This document shows, one piece after another, positions 8,398 through 43,654 of a DNA stretch of 47,954 nucleotides (the first letter of the stretch is position 1; each line of letters starts with the position of its first letter). Both the position numbers and the translations under genes were made by a program. This DNA is from Thermoanaerobaculia bacterium (GTDB lineage: Bacteria; Acidobacteriota; Thermoanaerobaculia; Multivoradales; JAHZIX01): positions 1 through 47,954 of the forward strand of contig JALXFE010000399.1 in NCBI GenBank assembly GCA_027069135.1. The letters run 5' to 3'. The notes beneath the pieces were generated by a model, which did not search any database, was not told the origin of the DNA, and was given only the letters and a program-made list of their open reading frames with translations.

Positions 8398-11274
8398 ATG
8401 ATGTCGTCCATGATTTGCAAAGCTCTCCCGGCCTGGTCTCTTACCCTTATCCTTCTCGGGCTGTCCGCGATCCCATCTCACGGCGCCGGGCTTACCCGGC
8501 TGGATTTTCTCGGCTCTGCCACAGTGCCTACCGGTACGTCGATCGACGGCAGTACCTTCGGTGGCATCTCGAGCCTTGCCTATTACCCATCGGGGGACCT
8601 CTTTTTCGCCATCAGCGACGACCAGGGGCAGTACGGCCCCATCCGCTTCTACACTCTGAAGGTGGATCTGACCGGCGGCCGGCTCTCGGAAGGGGGGGTC
8701 TCCGTCACCGCCATGACCCCCCTGTTCGAGACCCCGGACCGCCCCATCGGCCGATTCGAATCCGATGCCGAAGGAATGGCCTTGGCGCCGGGAGGCCTTC
8801 TGTACATCTCTTCGGAAGGCAATGTACGCCGCGGCGTCGACCCGTTCCTTCGAGCCTTCAATCTCAGCGGAATGCCCGAGCGGAACTTGACGGTCCCCCG
8901 GCGATTTCGGCCAAAATCCGACGGCAGCAGTGGAATTCGCCACAACCTCGGCTTCGAGGGAATCGCCCTTTCCCCGGACTTCAATTTTCTTTACGTTGCC
9001 ACCGAGAACGCGCTGGCTCAGGACGGACCCCAAGCCGACGTAGCGGTCCGCAGCCCATCGCGAATCATGAAAATCGACCTTGCCCGGGACAAGGTCGTCG
9101 AGGAATACATCCTCTGGGTAGACGCGGTGACTCGCTCCCCGAAGCCGGCGGGCGAGCTGCGAACCCGGGGCTTGGTGGAGATCCGGGCTCTGGACGACAC
9201 CACCCTCCTGGCCCTGGAGCGGGAATTCGTCCGCGGCCGAGGGCACGACATCGTCCTCTACGAGCTCTCCCTCGAAGGAGCTGACAACGTCGTCGGCCGA
9301 AATCGGGTCGATCCGACGACCGTCCGCCCGGTGTCGAAGAACTTGCTCTTCAATTTCTCGGACTTAGAGCTCCCCCTGGACAACCTGGAGGCCATGGCCT
9401 TCGGCCCGGATCTTCCCGACGGACGCCGGACCCTCCTGGTGGCCAGTGACGACAACTTCAGCCAGCAGCAGCAGAGCCTGTTCCTCGCCTTCGCGACGGA
9501 TACACGTCGTCAGACGCCGGCCACCATTCAGGGCCGCGGACATCGATCACCGATGACCGGCAGCTTCGTCCTCGGCCTGGAAGGCGTCGTCACGGCGGTC
9601 GAGCGCTCCGACCAAGCCCGGCGATTCTGGTTCCAAAACCAACGCGGGGACGCCGACGATCGGACCTCCGAGGCACTAGAGATCTCGGTGGATCCGAAAC
9701 AACCTCTCCCCCGAGCCGGCGACGCGGTACGCATCAGCGGCCTGGTCCAGGAGCTTGGTCGTGAAGGACAGCTGTCGACGACGACCCTCCGGGCTTCGTC
9801 TGTTTCGCTCATCTCCCACGGCGTCACCCCACCCCGGGCCGTCGTTCTCGGCGATGGGGGCCGCAGAGTCCCCACGGAGAGCATCGATAGCGACGGCCTC
9901 CGCGAATTCCGCCCGAACCGGGATGCTCTCGATTTCTTCGAGAGCCTGGAAGGGATGCGGGTGGAGATTCGCGACCCGGTGGTCATCGGACCCACCACCG
10001 GCTACGGAACCCTCGTAGTCCTTGCCGACGGGGGGTCCGGTTCGGCCCTGCGAACCCATCGGGGCGGCCTCGTGCTCGGCGAGAAGGATCTCAACCCGGA
10101 GAGAATCTTGATCGATGCCCGGCTGGTCGGCAACGCTCCGAAAGCCCAGGTCGGTGACCGATTCAGCGGCCCCATCTCGGGAGTCCTGGGATACGACCGG
10201 GGAAGCTTCAAAGTCCTGGTGACGGGAAGCTTCCCGCGAATCTCCCCCTTTTCGTCCACCCAAGATGTGACCTCCCTGGTGGGGGACGACACCCATCTGA
10301 CCCTCGCGACCTACAATGTCCTCAACCTCAGCCCGGCAACGTCCGCGGCACGCTTTTCCCGGCTCGCCCAAAGCATCGTTCGCAACCTTAGAAGCCCGGA
10401 TATCCTGGCCCTTCAAGAGGTTCAGGACGATTCAGGGCCTACCGACGACGGCGTCGTGGGGGCTACTCAATGCCTGCGTCAACTGGTGGCCGCCATCCAG
10501 GCGGCCGGTGGCCCGACCTATAGCGCGCGACAGATCGATCCGGTGAATGGAGCGGACGGAGGCCAGCCCGGAGGCAACATCCGGGTGGCCTATCTCTTCA
10601 ATCCAAATCGGGTGGTCTTCGTCGATCGGGGAAACGGTGGAGCCCTAACCCCCACGGCGGTGGAAAACTCCGAGGAGTTGGGAGAGCCCCGTCTGACCCT
10701 CAGCCCGGGACGCATTTCCCCGACGGAGGCGGCATTTCGGGGGGATTCCGGGCAGGGCTTCGAAGGCGGCCGGAAATCCTTGGCCGCCGAGGTGTTCTTC
10801 CAGGGACAACGGATCTTTCTCGTCAACAACCATCTCAAGTCCAAACGGGGGGACGACCGGCTCTTTGGGAGCGTTCAACCGCCGGTGGCGAGAACCGAGC
10901 TTCAACGCCGAGCCCAGACCCTCTTGTTGCGAAGATTCGCCGATCAGATTCTGGCCCAGGCGCCCCTATCGAATATCGTGATCCTCGGCGATATGAACGA
11001 GCACGAATTTCGCAGCCCCATGAAGATGCTGACGGACAACCAGATCACCCCCTTGCCCCTGAGCAACCTGATGGAGTGGATCCCAGCGGAAGAGCGCTAC
11101 ACCTTCAACTATCTGGGGAATTCCCAGGTTCTGGACCACGTCTTCGTCAGTCCCAATCTGGTGGTCAACGGCGCACCGCAAATCGACATCGTCCACGTCA
11201 ACGCCGACTTCGCCGCCGCCGACGCCGCGAGCGATCACGACCCCGTCGTCGTACGGCTGCGCATCGCGCCCTAG
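8398..11274 (+). CDS. Secreted phytase-like / endonuclease-exonuclease-phosphatase fusion
   Basis: A 958-residue exported protein. After a signal peptide (residues 1-29) comes an esterase-like phytase domain (about 30-370: LDFLGSATVPTG, FGGISSLAYYP, ESDAEGMAL, GFEGIALSPD). A middle region of about 380-630 resembles the OB-fold part of ExeM/NucH-type secreted nucleases. The C-terminal 320 residues form an EEP nuclease domain with LATYNVLNLSP, ILALQEVQD, NNHLKSK, ILGDMNE, LDHVFVS and SDHDPVVV, so all the usual catalytic motifs are present. The combination suggests scavenging of phosphate from phytate-like compounds and DNA, though that pairing is inference. Two adjacent ATG codons follow GGAAGACGGAGC; either could start. 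The TAG stop lies inside the CTAG that begins the palindromic element at 11271. Confidence 0.9.
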   Translation: MMSSMICKALPAWSLTLILLGLSAIPSHGAGLTRLDFLGSATVPTGTSIDGSTFGGISSLAYYPSGDLFFAISDDQGQYGPIRFYTLKVDLTGGRLSEGGVSVTAMTPLFETPDRPIGRFESDAEGMALAPGGLLYISSEGNVRRGVDPFLRAFNLSGMPERNLTVPRRFRPKSDGSSGIRHNLGFEGIALSPDFNFLYVATENALAQDGPQADVAVRSPSRIMKIDLARDKVVEEYILWVDAVTRSPKPAGELRTRGLVEIRALDDTTLLALEREFVRGRGHDIVLYELSLEGADNVVGRNRVDPTTVRPVSKNLLFNFSDLELPLDNLEAMAFGPDLPDGRRTLLVASDDNFSQQQQSLFLAFATDTRRQTPATIQGRGHRSPMTGSFVLGLEGVVTAVERSDQARRFWFQNQRGDADDRTSEALEISVDPKQPLPRAGDAVRISGLVQELGREGQLSTTTLRASSVSLISHGVTPPRAVVLGDGGRRVPTESIDSDGLREFRPNRDALDFFESLEGMRVEIRDPVVIGPTTGYGTLVVLADGGSGSALRTHRGGLVLGEKDLNPERILIDARLVGNAPKAQVGDRFSGPISGVLGYDRGSFKVLVTGSFPRISPFSSTQDVTSLVGDDTHLTLATYNVLNLSPATSAARFSRLAQSIVRNLRSPDILALQEVQDDSGPTDDGVVGATQCLRQLVAAIQAAGGPTYSARQIDPVNGADGGQPGGNIRVAYLFNPNRVVFVDRGNGGALTPTAVENSEELGEPRLTLSPGRISPTEAAFRGDSGQGFEGGRKSLAAEVFFQGQRIFLVNNHLKSKRGDDRLFGSVQPPVARTELQRRAQTLLLRRFADQILAQAPLSNIVILGDMNEHEFRSPMKMLTDNQITPLPLSNLMEWIPAEERYTFNYLGNSQVLDHVFVSPNLVVNGAPQIDIVHVNADFAAADAASDHDPVVVRLRIAP

Positions 11275-11437
11275 CAGCCCGTGGCAAGAGTCGAACCGCG
11301 CTCCGAGCGGTTCTATTCGGCCGGATCTTCGTTGTCAAACCTCGATGATTCTAAGAATCATCTGCGGTTTTCCGTCTTGATTCGGCTCGAATACTCCTCG
11401 CTCTCGCTAGCGCCTGACTTCTGCCACGGGCTGCTAG
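11271..11437 (+). mobile_element. Palindromic MITE-like element, copy A
   Basis: This 167-base element has perfect 16-bp terminal inverted repeats (CTAGCAGCCCGTGGCA and its complement). It contains a central 8-bp hairpin, GATGATTC-TAA-GAATCATC, and further partly self-complementary arms. Copy B (40686-40851) is the same sequence in the opposite orientation with about eight differences, mostly transitions. No transposase is encoded, so it would have to be mobilised in trans. CTAG at both ends is what insertion at TA within CTAG would leave, the known target of IS630, but a family assignment is inference. The stop codon of the preceding gene lies in the first CTAG, so this insertion would have left that protein unchanged. 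Confidence 0.85.
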
Positions 11438-22419: not shown

Positions 22420-23412
22420 TCAGCGTTTGTCCTGGGCTCGGGCAGCCTCGGCGAAGCGCCGGACGACCTCGCCAGCCGGTTCTACCGAACGGACCCCGGC
22501 AACGCTCTTCCCCGCTTGCAGGAAATCGCGATAGCTGAAGGGCCTTAGAGAGGAACGCCTGAGCTTGAAGGCGGATTGGAGGGAGTAGATCATCCGCATC
22601 CAATGCTTGGTCTTTCGCCCTTTCAACAGGAAGCGGGCGATGGGGCCTGCCTTGGTCCCGATCTCTTCGATATAGGGAGTGCGGATCACCGAGACCGGAA
22701 CACCGGTCATACGCTCGGTCAGAACGATGTCTTTCTCCTCAGCTTCGACGACCGCCTGCTTGTAGTCGTCGTGGGCGGTACACTCCTCGGTGGCGATGAA
22801 CCGGGTTCCCATCTGGACCCCCGCGTAGCCCAATTGGAGAGCCCCTACGAAATCGGATTCGCTGCCGATGCCCCCGGCGCAGACGACGGGAACGCCCAGA
22901 TCTTGGAGCTCTTTGAGCAGCCCCGCCGCGGCCCCGTCGCCGGCATGTCCGCCGGCCCGATCATTGACGGCGATCAGGCCGTCGGCACCAGCTTCCAGCC
23001 CCTTCAAGGCCCATTTGCGATTCGTCACGTCATGGTAGACCTTGCCGCCCACCGCGTGAGCCTTTTCAACGACCCACCGTGGATTCCCTAGCGAGGTCAC
23101 GAAGAAGCGAACGCCGGCCTCCAAGGCCTGATCCGTGTAGCGCTTCATACGATCCTCATACACCTTCGAGGATTTCTCGACGATGACGTTCATCCCCACG
23201 GGACGGTCCGTAATCTCTCGGATCCGCTGCATACCCGATTCGAAAGTGTAGCCATGCACATACACCAGGGAGAGAGGCTGGATCACCCCGATCCCCCCCG
23301 CTGCCGACACCGCTGCCACCAGCTCCGGATTGCTGCAGGGATACATGGCACCGCAAATCAAAGGTACCTCGATACCGAGGTCACTCGTCAAAGGAGTCTC
23401 AAGTCGGGACAT
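22420..23412 (-). CDS. Nitronate monooxygenase (FMN-dependent)
   Basis: A 330-residue TIM-barrel flavoprotein of the nitronate monooxygenase/2-nitropropane dioxygenase family, which oxidises toxic nitronates. Visible are the N-terminal phosphate/flavin region (PLICGAMYPCSNPELVAAVS), the catalytic His156 in AVNDRAGGHAGD, the FMN-binding VCAGGIGSESD, and GVQMGTRFIATEEC. The same family includes enoyl-ACP reductase FabK-like proteins, but the absence of fatty-acid genes and the NDRAGGHAG motif favour nitronate monooxygenase. GGAGA lies about a dozen bases before the ATG. A truncated second copy of residues 18-40 of this protein lies 340 bases upstream at 23633-23701. Confidence 0.88.
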   Translation of the reverse strand: MSRLETPLTSDLGIEVPLICGAMYPCSNPELVAAVSAAGGIGVIQPLSLVYVHGYTFESGMQRIREITDRPVGMNVIVEKSSKVYEDRMKRYTDQALEAGVRFFVTSLGNPRWVVEKAHAVGGKVYHDVTNRKWALKGLEAGADGLIAVNDRAGGHAGDGAAAGLLKELQDLGVPVVCAGGIGSESDFVGALQLGYAGVQMGTRFIATEECTAHDDYKQAVVEAEEKDIVLTERMTGVPVSVIRTPYIEEIGTKAGPIARFLLKGRKTKHWMRMIYSLQSAFKLRRSSLRPFSYRDFLQAGKSVAGVRSVEPAGEVVRRFAEAARAQDKR

Positions 23413-23632: not shown

Positions 23633-23701
23633 TCCCCCCGCCGCTGAGACCGCGGCCACCAATTCCGGATTGCTGCAGGGATACATGGCACCGCAGATCA
23701 A
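23633..23701 (-). pseudogene. Fragment of a second nitronate monooxygenase gene
   Basis: Reading the minus strand from 23701, the 23 codons match residues 18-40 of the intact nitronate monooxygenase at 22420-23412. The bases 23664-23695 are identical to 23324-23355 (32 bases), exactly 340 bases away, with some differences on either side. The similarity begins at the stop codon of the vapC-like gene and ends at the C-rich run near 23633; beyond it the frame is unrelated. This is a remnant of duplication or recombination, with a breakpoint at the end of the toxin gene. The rest of the interval 23413-23632 shows no recognisable gene. Confidence 0.75.
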
Positions 23702-39717: not shown

Positions 39718-40673
39718 GATTGCTCCTGATCTTGCCCGAGGGGCGGCAGGCCGGAGTAGGTCTCGGTCACCCTGCCATCTACGACAAAAAAACTACGGGG
39801 AAGCTGCCGATACAAGGATCTGAGGATCGCTTCCGGGCCCTCGCGAATCTCGAAACTCGGCCCCCAACGCCAAAAAAACGAGCTCACGACCTCCGGCTCT
39901 ACGGAGGTCACGACCCACAACCGAGGTCCCACGCCAGAAAGAACGTAGGCATTGAAAGCCTCGACCGCATCTGCGAAGGCGGGGTCTTCGAGATCTGCCA
40001 ACACCACGTAATGACTCCCGGTGGCAAGCTCCGGAACGATGGTGCTGAAACAGGTCCGCTGGCCTCCGGCGCCGCTGCATAAGTCCGCGATCTCTACCTC
40101 CGGCCGAAGGCGAGTGGCGAGATTGTCGAGGGGCAGATCCGGAGCCTTGAAGGCCACCACCAACGCCGCGACGGCAACCAAGGCAGCCGTGACGACCCTC
40201 GGCCGAAACCACCGCCGACTACCCCACCTCCAAGCCACGAAAGCCAGGAGGAGCGGAGGTACCAAGAGAAATATATCCTGCCAAAATGCCTCAGCGGGAG
40301 TGCGATCGACCAGATTCCCGAAACATCCGCAGGAAGCTCCTTCGTCCCTCAACCCTCTCGCCGTCAGCCAGTAATTTCTACCGGTGAGCCAGAGGAAAAA
40401 GGCGACCAACAAAGTGCTGGGGATCAAAATCCACAGCCGCCTCAGGCCAAGCACCAGGGCGGTTCCCAAACCGACCTCCAGCGCCAAGGCGAGGAAGGCC
40501 ACGGCGGCAGCGGGAAGCAGAAAGTCCAGGCCTTCCAGGCGAATTTGTTCGATGAAGGCGTTGGGATCCAGAATCTTGGCCCAGGCGGCGACCAGGAGCA
40601 CGGCTCCCAAGGCCGCCCCTCCCAAGTATCCGAGAGAACGGCGCCAAAATGCGGGTGGATCCAGATCACTCAT
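39714..40673 (-). CDS. MauE/DoxX-like membrane protein with extra C-terminal domain
   Basis: A 319-residue inner-membrane protein. Four to five membrane helices span about 15-175. The MauE motif SCGCFGNLVDR is present: MauE-like proteins pass electrons between quinones or thioredoxin-like partners and the periplasm. The last 130 residues form a soluble domain that looks like a degenerate thioredoxin fold (YVVLADLEDPAF, RSFFVVDGRVTETY), with Cys pairs at DLCSGAGGQRTCF. It overlaps the thioredoxin gene by four bases. Upstream, copy B of the palindromic element separates it from the helical lipoprotein gene, from which it was probably once seven bases away. Confidence 0.85.
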   Translation of the reverse strand: MSDLDPPAFWRRSLGYLGGAALGAVLLVAAWAKILDPNAFIEQIRLEGLDFLLPAAAVAFLALALEVGLGTALVLGLRRLWILIPSTLLVAFFLWLTGRNYWLTARGLRDEGASCGCFGNLVDRTPAEAFWQDIFLLVPPLLLAFVAWRWGSRRWFRPRVVTAALVAVAALVVAFKAPDLPLDNLATRLRPEVEIADLCSGAGGQRTCFSTIVPELATGSHYVVLADLEDPAFADAVEAFNAYVLSGVGPRLWVVTSVEPEVVSSFFWRWGPSFEIREGPEAILRSLYRQLPRSFFVVDGRVTETYSGLPPLGQDQEQS

Positions 40674-40685
40674 AGGGCGCTCATT

Positions 40686-40851
40686 CTAGCAGCCCGTGGC
40701 AGAAGTCAGGCGCTAGCGAGAGCGAGGAATATTCGAGCCGAATCAAGGCGGAAAACCGCAGATGATTCGGGAATCATCGAGGTTTGACAACGAAGATTCG
40801 GCCGGATAGAACCGCTCGGAGCGCGGTTCGACTTTTGCCACGGGCTGCTAG
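40686..40851 (-). mobile_element. Palindromic MITE-like element, copy B (inverted)
   Basis: This 166-base copy is the reverse complement of copy A (11271-11437) with about 95 percent identity. It has the same 16-bp terminal inverted repeats and a central hairpin with a CC loop in place of TAA. It lies between the MauE-like gene and the helical lipoprotein gene. Its minus strand reads in frame with the latter and provides its final 24 codons and stop (40774-40776). Confidence 0.88.
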
Positions 40852-42172: not shown

Positions 42173-43654
42173 CTACTCTTTCCGCCCTACGTAGGTCCCC
42201 GCAAGAACATCGTGCAGACCCCGGCGGCTTCTCGTAAAGAGGATCATGAGAAATCCGAACCCCAGAGAAAGCCCGCTCAGCAGGTACCCTCCAAATCGGG
42301 CCAGGGCCTTTCCGACGCTGAGGGTGGGATCCCCAGCTTCGTCGAAAACGTAGAGCCCCAACATGCGCTTTCCCGGCGTGGTCCCCCAAAGATTGAGGCC
42401 GAAGACCTGAATCAGCAGAGCGACCCCGAAAAGGGCGGTATAGAAGATGGCTCCGCCCTCGGGCTCCCCGGGGCCGCCTCCGGCTAAGGAGGCCAGGAAC
42501 GCCAAGACGGCGACCAAGATCGCATCCAACAACCCAGCACCGAGGCGGGCTCCGAGGCCTACGGGTTCCCCCATCGGCGCCGGGCGACGCACTCTCGGCA
42601 CGCGATCAAGCTCCGCCGCCGTGCGTAGCCCAGCCCCCGTGGGCGACGGGGCCGCCGGGATATCTGCTCTCGCCTCCGGCTGGGTCGGAGGCATCATGAG
42701 GGCGTCCAACTCATCGAGGGAGGGTAGAAGCTCACCGTCTCCAGAGCCCGTGGCAGGAGCGGGAGGCTTGGCTTCTGGCCTTTGCCGTAGCGCCGCTGGT
42801 TCCGCCGTCGGTCCCTTCTCTTCCGCCAAGCGCCGCACCGCTTCCTGCACCGTGTCACTCCCGAGAGTGCTCTCCAGGGTTCCCGCGGCAGTGCCGGTCT
42901 TGGGAACCCCGACTGGGGAGGCCCCGGATAAAAAGGTCCGAGGTGGAGAGATCGGAGCAGCAGGGGGAACAGGCGGAACAGGCGGAACAGGCGGAGCCTC
43001 ATCCCGAGGTGGGGAGGGCTCGTCCTCGAACGTAATCTCCGCTTCGACAACCGGTGTTCCCACACTGGCGGTTTCGAAGCTCTCCTGCCCTTCTCGAGCG
43101 GCGGACTCGGCATCCTGAGCCGCATTCAAGTCCGAAAAAGTGGACCCTGGATCCTCCGGTGATTGGAGGGTTTCCATGATCGGATCCACGACGGCCCGGA
43201 TCCCGTCCTCCCCTTGAGCTTCTACTTCAGCGATCAGCCCGGCGAAGGAATAATCGCTCGAGCCCGGGGATTCTCCCTCGATCCTCTCCAGGTCGAAGTG
43301 CGTCTCACCGAGGGTCAACCGGTCTCCGGGGACCAGGGCTCTCTCACTCTGGAGACGTTCCCCGTTGACGTAGGTCCCGTTGCTGGAAGAAAGATCCTTG
43401 ATCGTGAGAGCCTTGTCGCGGAGCGTAAAAAGGGCATGGCTCCGGCTGACGCTGGGATCCTTGACCACCATCTGGCAACTACGGCTTCGACCGGCCAGGG
43501 ACTCCCCTTCAGAAAGCTCGAAGGAGCCCTGCTCGGATCGAAGGATAAATCTGAGAAGGTCAGAAATCTCGAGGCCCTCCCCGCAAATGCCAAGGCAGGC
43601 TCTTCTTTCCACCTCGAAGAGCCTCAATCTCGAATGGAATCCGGCGGACGTCAT
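42173..43654 (-). CDS. FHA-RDD membrane protein
   Basis: A 493-residue protein. An FHA domain lies near the N-terminus at about 45-125 (SLAGRSRSC, PSVSRSHALF, SSSNGTYVNGE), with all usual phosphothreonine-binding residues. A 220-residue acidic, Pro-rich linker follows, including three PPV repeats. The C-terminal 130 residues form an RDD membrane domain with three helices (LGARLGAGLLDAILVAVLAFLA, FYTALFGVALLIQVF, GKALARFGGYLLSGLSL) and WGTTPGKRMLGL. It may tether a phosphorylated partner at the membrane. The exact start is uncertain; CCAGG before ATG 43652 is weak. The helical lipoprotein gene follows after 46 bases. Confidence 0.88.
   Translation of the reverse strand: MTSAGFHSRLRLFEVERRACLGICGEGLEISDLLRFILRSEQGSFELSEGESLAGRSRSCQMVVKDPSVSRSHALFTLRDKALTIKDLSSSNGTYVNGERLQSERALVPGDRLTLGETHFDLERIEGESPGSSDYSFAGLIAEVEAQGEDGIRAVVDPIMETLQSPEDPGSTFSDLNAAQDAESAAREGQESFETASVGTPVVEAEITFEDEPSPPRDEAPPVPPVPPVPPAAPISPPRTFLSGASPVGVPKTGTAAGTLESTLGSDTVQEAVRRLAEEKGPTAEPAALRQRPEAKPPAPATGSGDGELLPSLDELDALMMPPTQPEARADIPAAPSPTGAGLRTAAELDRVPRVRRPAPMGEPVGLGARLGAGLLDAILVAVLAFLASLAGGGPGEPEGGAIFYTALFGVALLIQVFGLNLWGTTPGKRMLGLYVFDEAGDPTLSVGKALARFGGYLLSGLSLGFGFLMILFTRSRRGLHDVLAGTYVGRKE

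Follow-up and report, generated by a model that had tools for sequence, protein, structure and literature searches.

The window analysed here, a stretch of 47,954 nucleotides, makes up contig C399 in a draft genome of 7.17 Mb from the Thermoanaerobaculia (Acidobacteriota; labelled G000), and in it a short repeat lies across the end of a putative lipoprotein gene and just ahead of a MauE-like gene, raising the question of what this repeat is and what its arrival did to the two genes. The lipoprotein ORF, a degenerate member of its family (42126-40774, minus strand; 450 residues including the tail described below), lies downstream of a gene combining FHA and RDD domains (42173..43654, minus strand), which serves as a synteny anchor, and is followed by the MauE-like gene (PF07291; 39714..40673, minus strand; 319 residues) and then by a redoxin-like gene with a weak match to PF08534 (38890..39717, minus strand). 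The repeat, which we call copy B, has a 158-bp core with terminal inverted repeats (40690..40847, minus strand; ends CAGCCCGTGGCAAAAGTC and CAGCCCGTGGCAGAAGTC) and stands between two CTAG tetranucleotides, at 40848..40851 on the lipoprotein side and at 40686..40689 on the MauE side; its minus-strand RNA folds stably (z = -8.35). Copy A, with a core of 159 bp (11275..11433, plus strand), is likewise bounded by CTAG at 11271..11274 and 11434..11437, and the left of these holds the TAG stop of an adjoining ORF of 958 residues (8398-11274), in line with the claim of the first-pass annotation that this copy had left its host's stop codon intact. The window also contains a 68-nt direct repeat, 90% identical, whose two units (23294-23361 and 23634-23701) are 340 nt apart.

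The identity of the repeat emerges from the rest of the genome, in which BLAST recovers 52 matches, and no fewer than 37 distinct copies have both of their ends present. The core is 158-159 bp long, yields only short peptides and no transposase gene when translated in all frames, and carries the terminal inverted repeats CAGCCCGTGGCA(A/G)AAGTC on both ends. Around most of the 37 copies the four-base flanks are identical to each other and read CTAG, TTAG, CTAA or TTAA, that is YTAR, which places CTAG outside the element as its duplicated target. The repeat thereby combines a short body lacking a transposase, terminal inverted repeats, target duplication, a high copy number and ends common to an autonomous element, all hallmarks of a MITE. 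Individual copies depart from a 159-base consensus by only 0-7 changes, two exceptions apart, and the expansion is therefore recent. Given the 52 matches and 37 paired-end copies, chance is excluded as the source of the copy B/CTAG arrangement, and the earlier proposal of a mobile element insertion holds: the element is a non-autonomous MITE of IS1182-like type that takes the four bases YTAR as its target and duplicates them on insertion, and copy B is one of its young copies. Duplication of YTAR is also known for IS5 (PMC10359306). Several relatives have related elements (85% in G002), whereas G001 is essentially without them. At one shared internal CTAG, several MITE copies carry another element, about 160 bp long, which starts with TGTCCCGATTG; the resulting 320-bp composite (L150, L151, L153 and L183, on contigs C460, C456, C252 and C334 of this genome) may have spread as a unit.

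The autonomous element in question is found in another relative, G047, which has two intact 1,491-bp elements coding for a transposase with DUF772 and DDE_Tnp_1 domains. Their ends, CAGCCCGTGGTGAAAGTC and CAGCCCGTGGCAGAAGTC, are those of the MITE terminal repeats, and they are flanked by the duplications CTAT and CTAC. The best NCBIfam name for the transposase is IS1182 (NF033551), whose insertion sequences share the combination of DUF772 and DDE_Tnp_1, with a score of 175 bits that falls below the curated cut-off of 270. On these sequence features the G047 element is the likely parent of the MITE, and is better described as IS1182-like than as a confirmed member of IS1182. A 56% relative is present in G002. 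In the window's own draft genome no intact parent was found, the best match reaching 31%, an absence that loss of the element or a fragmented assembly might explain. Two other transposon types were considered as parents and rejected: an IS701 copy in this genome, also at CTAG, ends in TACTACTGTGTCATAA and has different terminal repeats, and DUF4372-containing IS4-like elements have ends (CACTGCTGTCCCAC) that differ from those of the MITE. IS701-like elements with these TACTACTGTGTCATAA ends lie at CTAG at L200 and L203 (contig C53 of this genome) and at L201 (contig C381 of G018), and at the last of these a relative of the MITE abuts the IS701-like element at the same CTAG. On contig C396 of the window's genome (L191, 4171-4541) a DUF4372 IS4-like element starts inside one end of a MITE and extends to the edge of the contig, and this proximity looks like a nested insertion.

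What copy B did to the lipoprotein gene can be read from its two flanks. Keeping one CTAG and removing the element gives an expected empty site, ...CCTGCTAGAATGAGCGCCCTATG, in which the lipoprotein would have ended ...SKDLLE with a TGA stop at 40681..40683 (minus strand), followed by GCGCCCT and the MauE ATG at 40673. This reconstruction and its 7-nt gap had been put forward in the first-pass annotation, and its coordinates proved exact on re-reading. At the occupied site the frame instead reads ...TSKDLL-AARGKSRTALRAVLSGRIFVVKPR-TGA, so that a predicted tail of 24 element-derived residues with its stop (40774..40848, minus strand; TGA at 40776-40774) takes the place of the terminal E, for a net gain of 23 residues; the roughly 25 foreign residues ending at 40774 of the earlier account are thus counted more precisely as 24. 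Measured from a conserved motif position, 16 homologues extend for another 21-36 residues, as against 33 in the empty site and 56 in the occupied one (both manual counts along the motif alignment), and therefore the tail is extra. Homologues free of the element show no long tail and end where the joined flanks predict, which bears out the proposal that a mobile repeat rewrote this C-terminus.

Might the basic 24-residue extension have been selected because it usefully alters the protein? All 450 codons are open and codon use resembles that of the neighbouring genes. Against this, the residues are simply those encoded by that frame of the element, whose consensus gives LAARGKSRTALRAVLFGRIFVVKPR, the tail has a codon score just below zero, and the host protein is short of half its invariant residues, all of which makes a selected function very improbable. 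No family name was obtained for the lipoprotein in sequence searches of Pfam, NCBIfam or PDB. Its identity to the nearest relative is 40% (63% for MauE), the N-terminal domain found in its homologues is missing, and it keeps 48 of 99 near-invariant residues, having lost 51, where every other homologue retains at least 94 of about 100. It is a strongly diverged and perhaps decaying copy, and a tail added to an already degenerate protein would for that reason be tolerable. The missing domain, the lost residues and the want of a Pfam match would also suit a pseudogene whose C-terminus is of no consequence; the ORF nonetheless runs open for 425 codons before the tail with a coding-like GC3 of 0.70 (0.69-0.75 in its neighbours) and has kept a signal-peptide-like start, and so we take the pseudogene seriously as a possibility while leaning against it.

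On the other side of the element, the insertion widened the lipoprotein-MauE gap from 7 nt in the reconstructed empty site to 100 nt, and the first-pass annotation saw in this the splitting of a once tight operon junction; on such a model, expression of MauE would have been lowered or uncoupled. The short reconstructed gap, the common direction of all the genes and the very stable fold of the element RNA speak for such an effect. Comparison with relatives points the other way. The order UvrA - FHA/RDD - lipoprotein, common to G001, G002 and G003, provides the basis for orthology. G001, the sole compared genome of the same GTDB genus, has FHA/RDD - lipoprotein - MauE - redoxin-like - porin with no element; it alone among the relatives shares the lipoprotein-MauE pair, and its two genes are separated by 74 nt, a wide gap where one of 5-10 bases had been expected. 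In G002 and G003, two other members of the family, the pair is not adjacent, as a convergent gene follows the lipoprotein in place of MauE. Across the class the gap upstream of MauE varies from about -26 to more than 170 nt, with gene ends called by a simple codon score, and the upstream gene differs. Given the 74 nt in G001 and the variable gaps elsewhere, the tight junction does not appear to be an ancestral operon feature. Together with a conserved -10-like box that seems to belong to MauE itself, this leaves the split operon an unlikely reading, and a putative leaderless MauE promoter is the better interpretation of the junction.

The box in question is TAGAAT (40683..40688, minus strand), at a distance of 9 nt from the MauE ATG; it overlaps the target and, together with the TGC in front of it, reads as an extended -10. 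Of 25 relatives, 16 have TANNAT within 5-13 nt ahead of the MauE start; other windows upstream give 0-1 such cases, and shuffled sequences average 0.29 with a maximum of 3. A TANNNT motif at roughly 12 nt upstream has been reported for leaderless bacterial genes (PMC3160421), a pattern which MauE matches at the level of consensus. Most genes of this genome have Shine-Dalgarno signals, which counts against a leaderless reading of MauE; the conserved box looks like a leaderless -10 element all the same. The box takes its first three bases, TAG, from the target CTAG and is preserved by the duplication on the MauE side, such that the empty and the occupied site both read TGCTAGAAT at this position. 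The core of the MauE promoter was thus probably kept after the insertion.

We therefore propose the following course of events. The target CTAG would have served two roles, as part of the last codons of the lipoprotein gene (CTG CTA GAA TGA) and as the start of the putative MauE -10 box (CTAGAAT). Through the duplication on the lipoprotein side, the frame now runs into the element, exchanging the E and stop of the reconstructed pre-insertion state for 24 predicted residues. The duplication on the MauE side restores TAGAAT, and the end of the element (...CTG plus C) the TGC before it, so that a promoter core, inferred from the conservation of the box, could survive even with all DNA upstream of it now belonging to the element. 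The insertion would have been tolerated because the upstream gene was already degenerate, with its N-terminal domain and half of the invariant residues presumably gone beforehand, and because transcription of MauE would be independent of the lipoprotein gene. We regard this account as a whole, an IS1182-like MITE arriving at CTAG, adding a tail, leaving the putative MauE -10 box in place and being tolerated, as probable. The insertion was probably harmless, and an adaptive role is unnecessary to explain it.

The position of copy B can also be set against those of the other copies. Only two of the 37 lie in called genes (copy B and one doubtful case), against about 16 expected (P about 2e-7), given that about 44% of YTAR sites in sampled sequence are within genes. 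In up to 10 of the 37 copies, as in copy A, an adjacent called gene has a stop codon that coincides with the target duplication (L003, L005, L007, L008, L013, L015, L020, L023, L026 and L154). Measured on the 35 non-genic copies, these 10 compare with 5.2 expected (P = 0.025, or 0.13 when two weak gene calls are left out), and enrichment at stop codons is only suggestive. An enrichment at -10 boxes was considered and rejected, as copy B alone qualifies and is a single case. A YTAR-targeting MITE could conceivably be largely self-healing, in that its duplication would remake a TAG or TAA stop or a TAGNNT -10 box and its CTG end would rebuild an extended -10, with the result that near-costless insertions accumulate at gene ends and leaderless starts; as a general rule we find this rather doubtful.

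C-terminal tails made by MITEs are already known, and the event at copy B is ordinary in kind; a 2007 review (PMC2229807) dealt with bacterial MITEs fused to reading frames. In the enhC gene of Coxiella burnetii Dugway, an in-frame QMITE2 at the 3' end encodes the final 33 residues together with the stop codon (PMC5896051), a tail comparable to that of copy B in a different gene and host and from a different element. Unlike the present case, a second strain with the same QMITE2 insertion has a stop just before the element (PMC5896051). In the amidase gene ECA3499 of Erwinia carotovora, RU-1 (ERIC/IRU) has removed the normal stop, and the protein continues for about 35 residues past the conserved domain (PMC2759123). 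RU-1 is an enterobacterial repeat with TA duplications, whereas copy B duplicates YTAR at a target that overlaps the -10-like box of the next gene. Copy B hence offers a clean example of a short transposon which rewrites the end of a protein and the junction behind it with the likely start signal of the next gene intact. The gene-sparing pattern, if true, would help to explain how such repeats spread without harm to their hosts.
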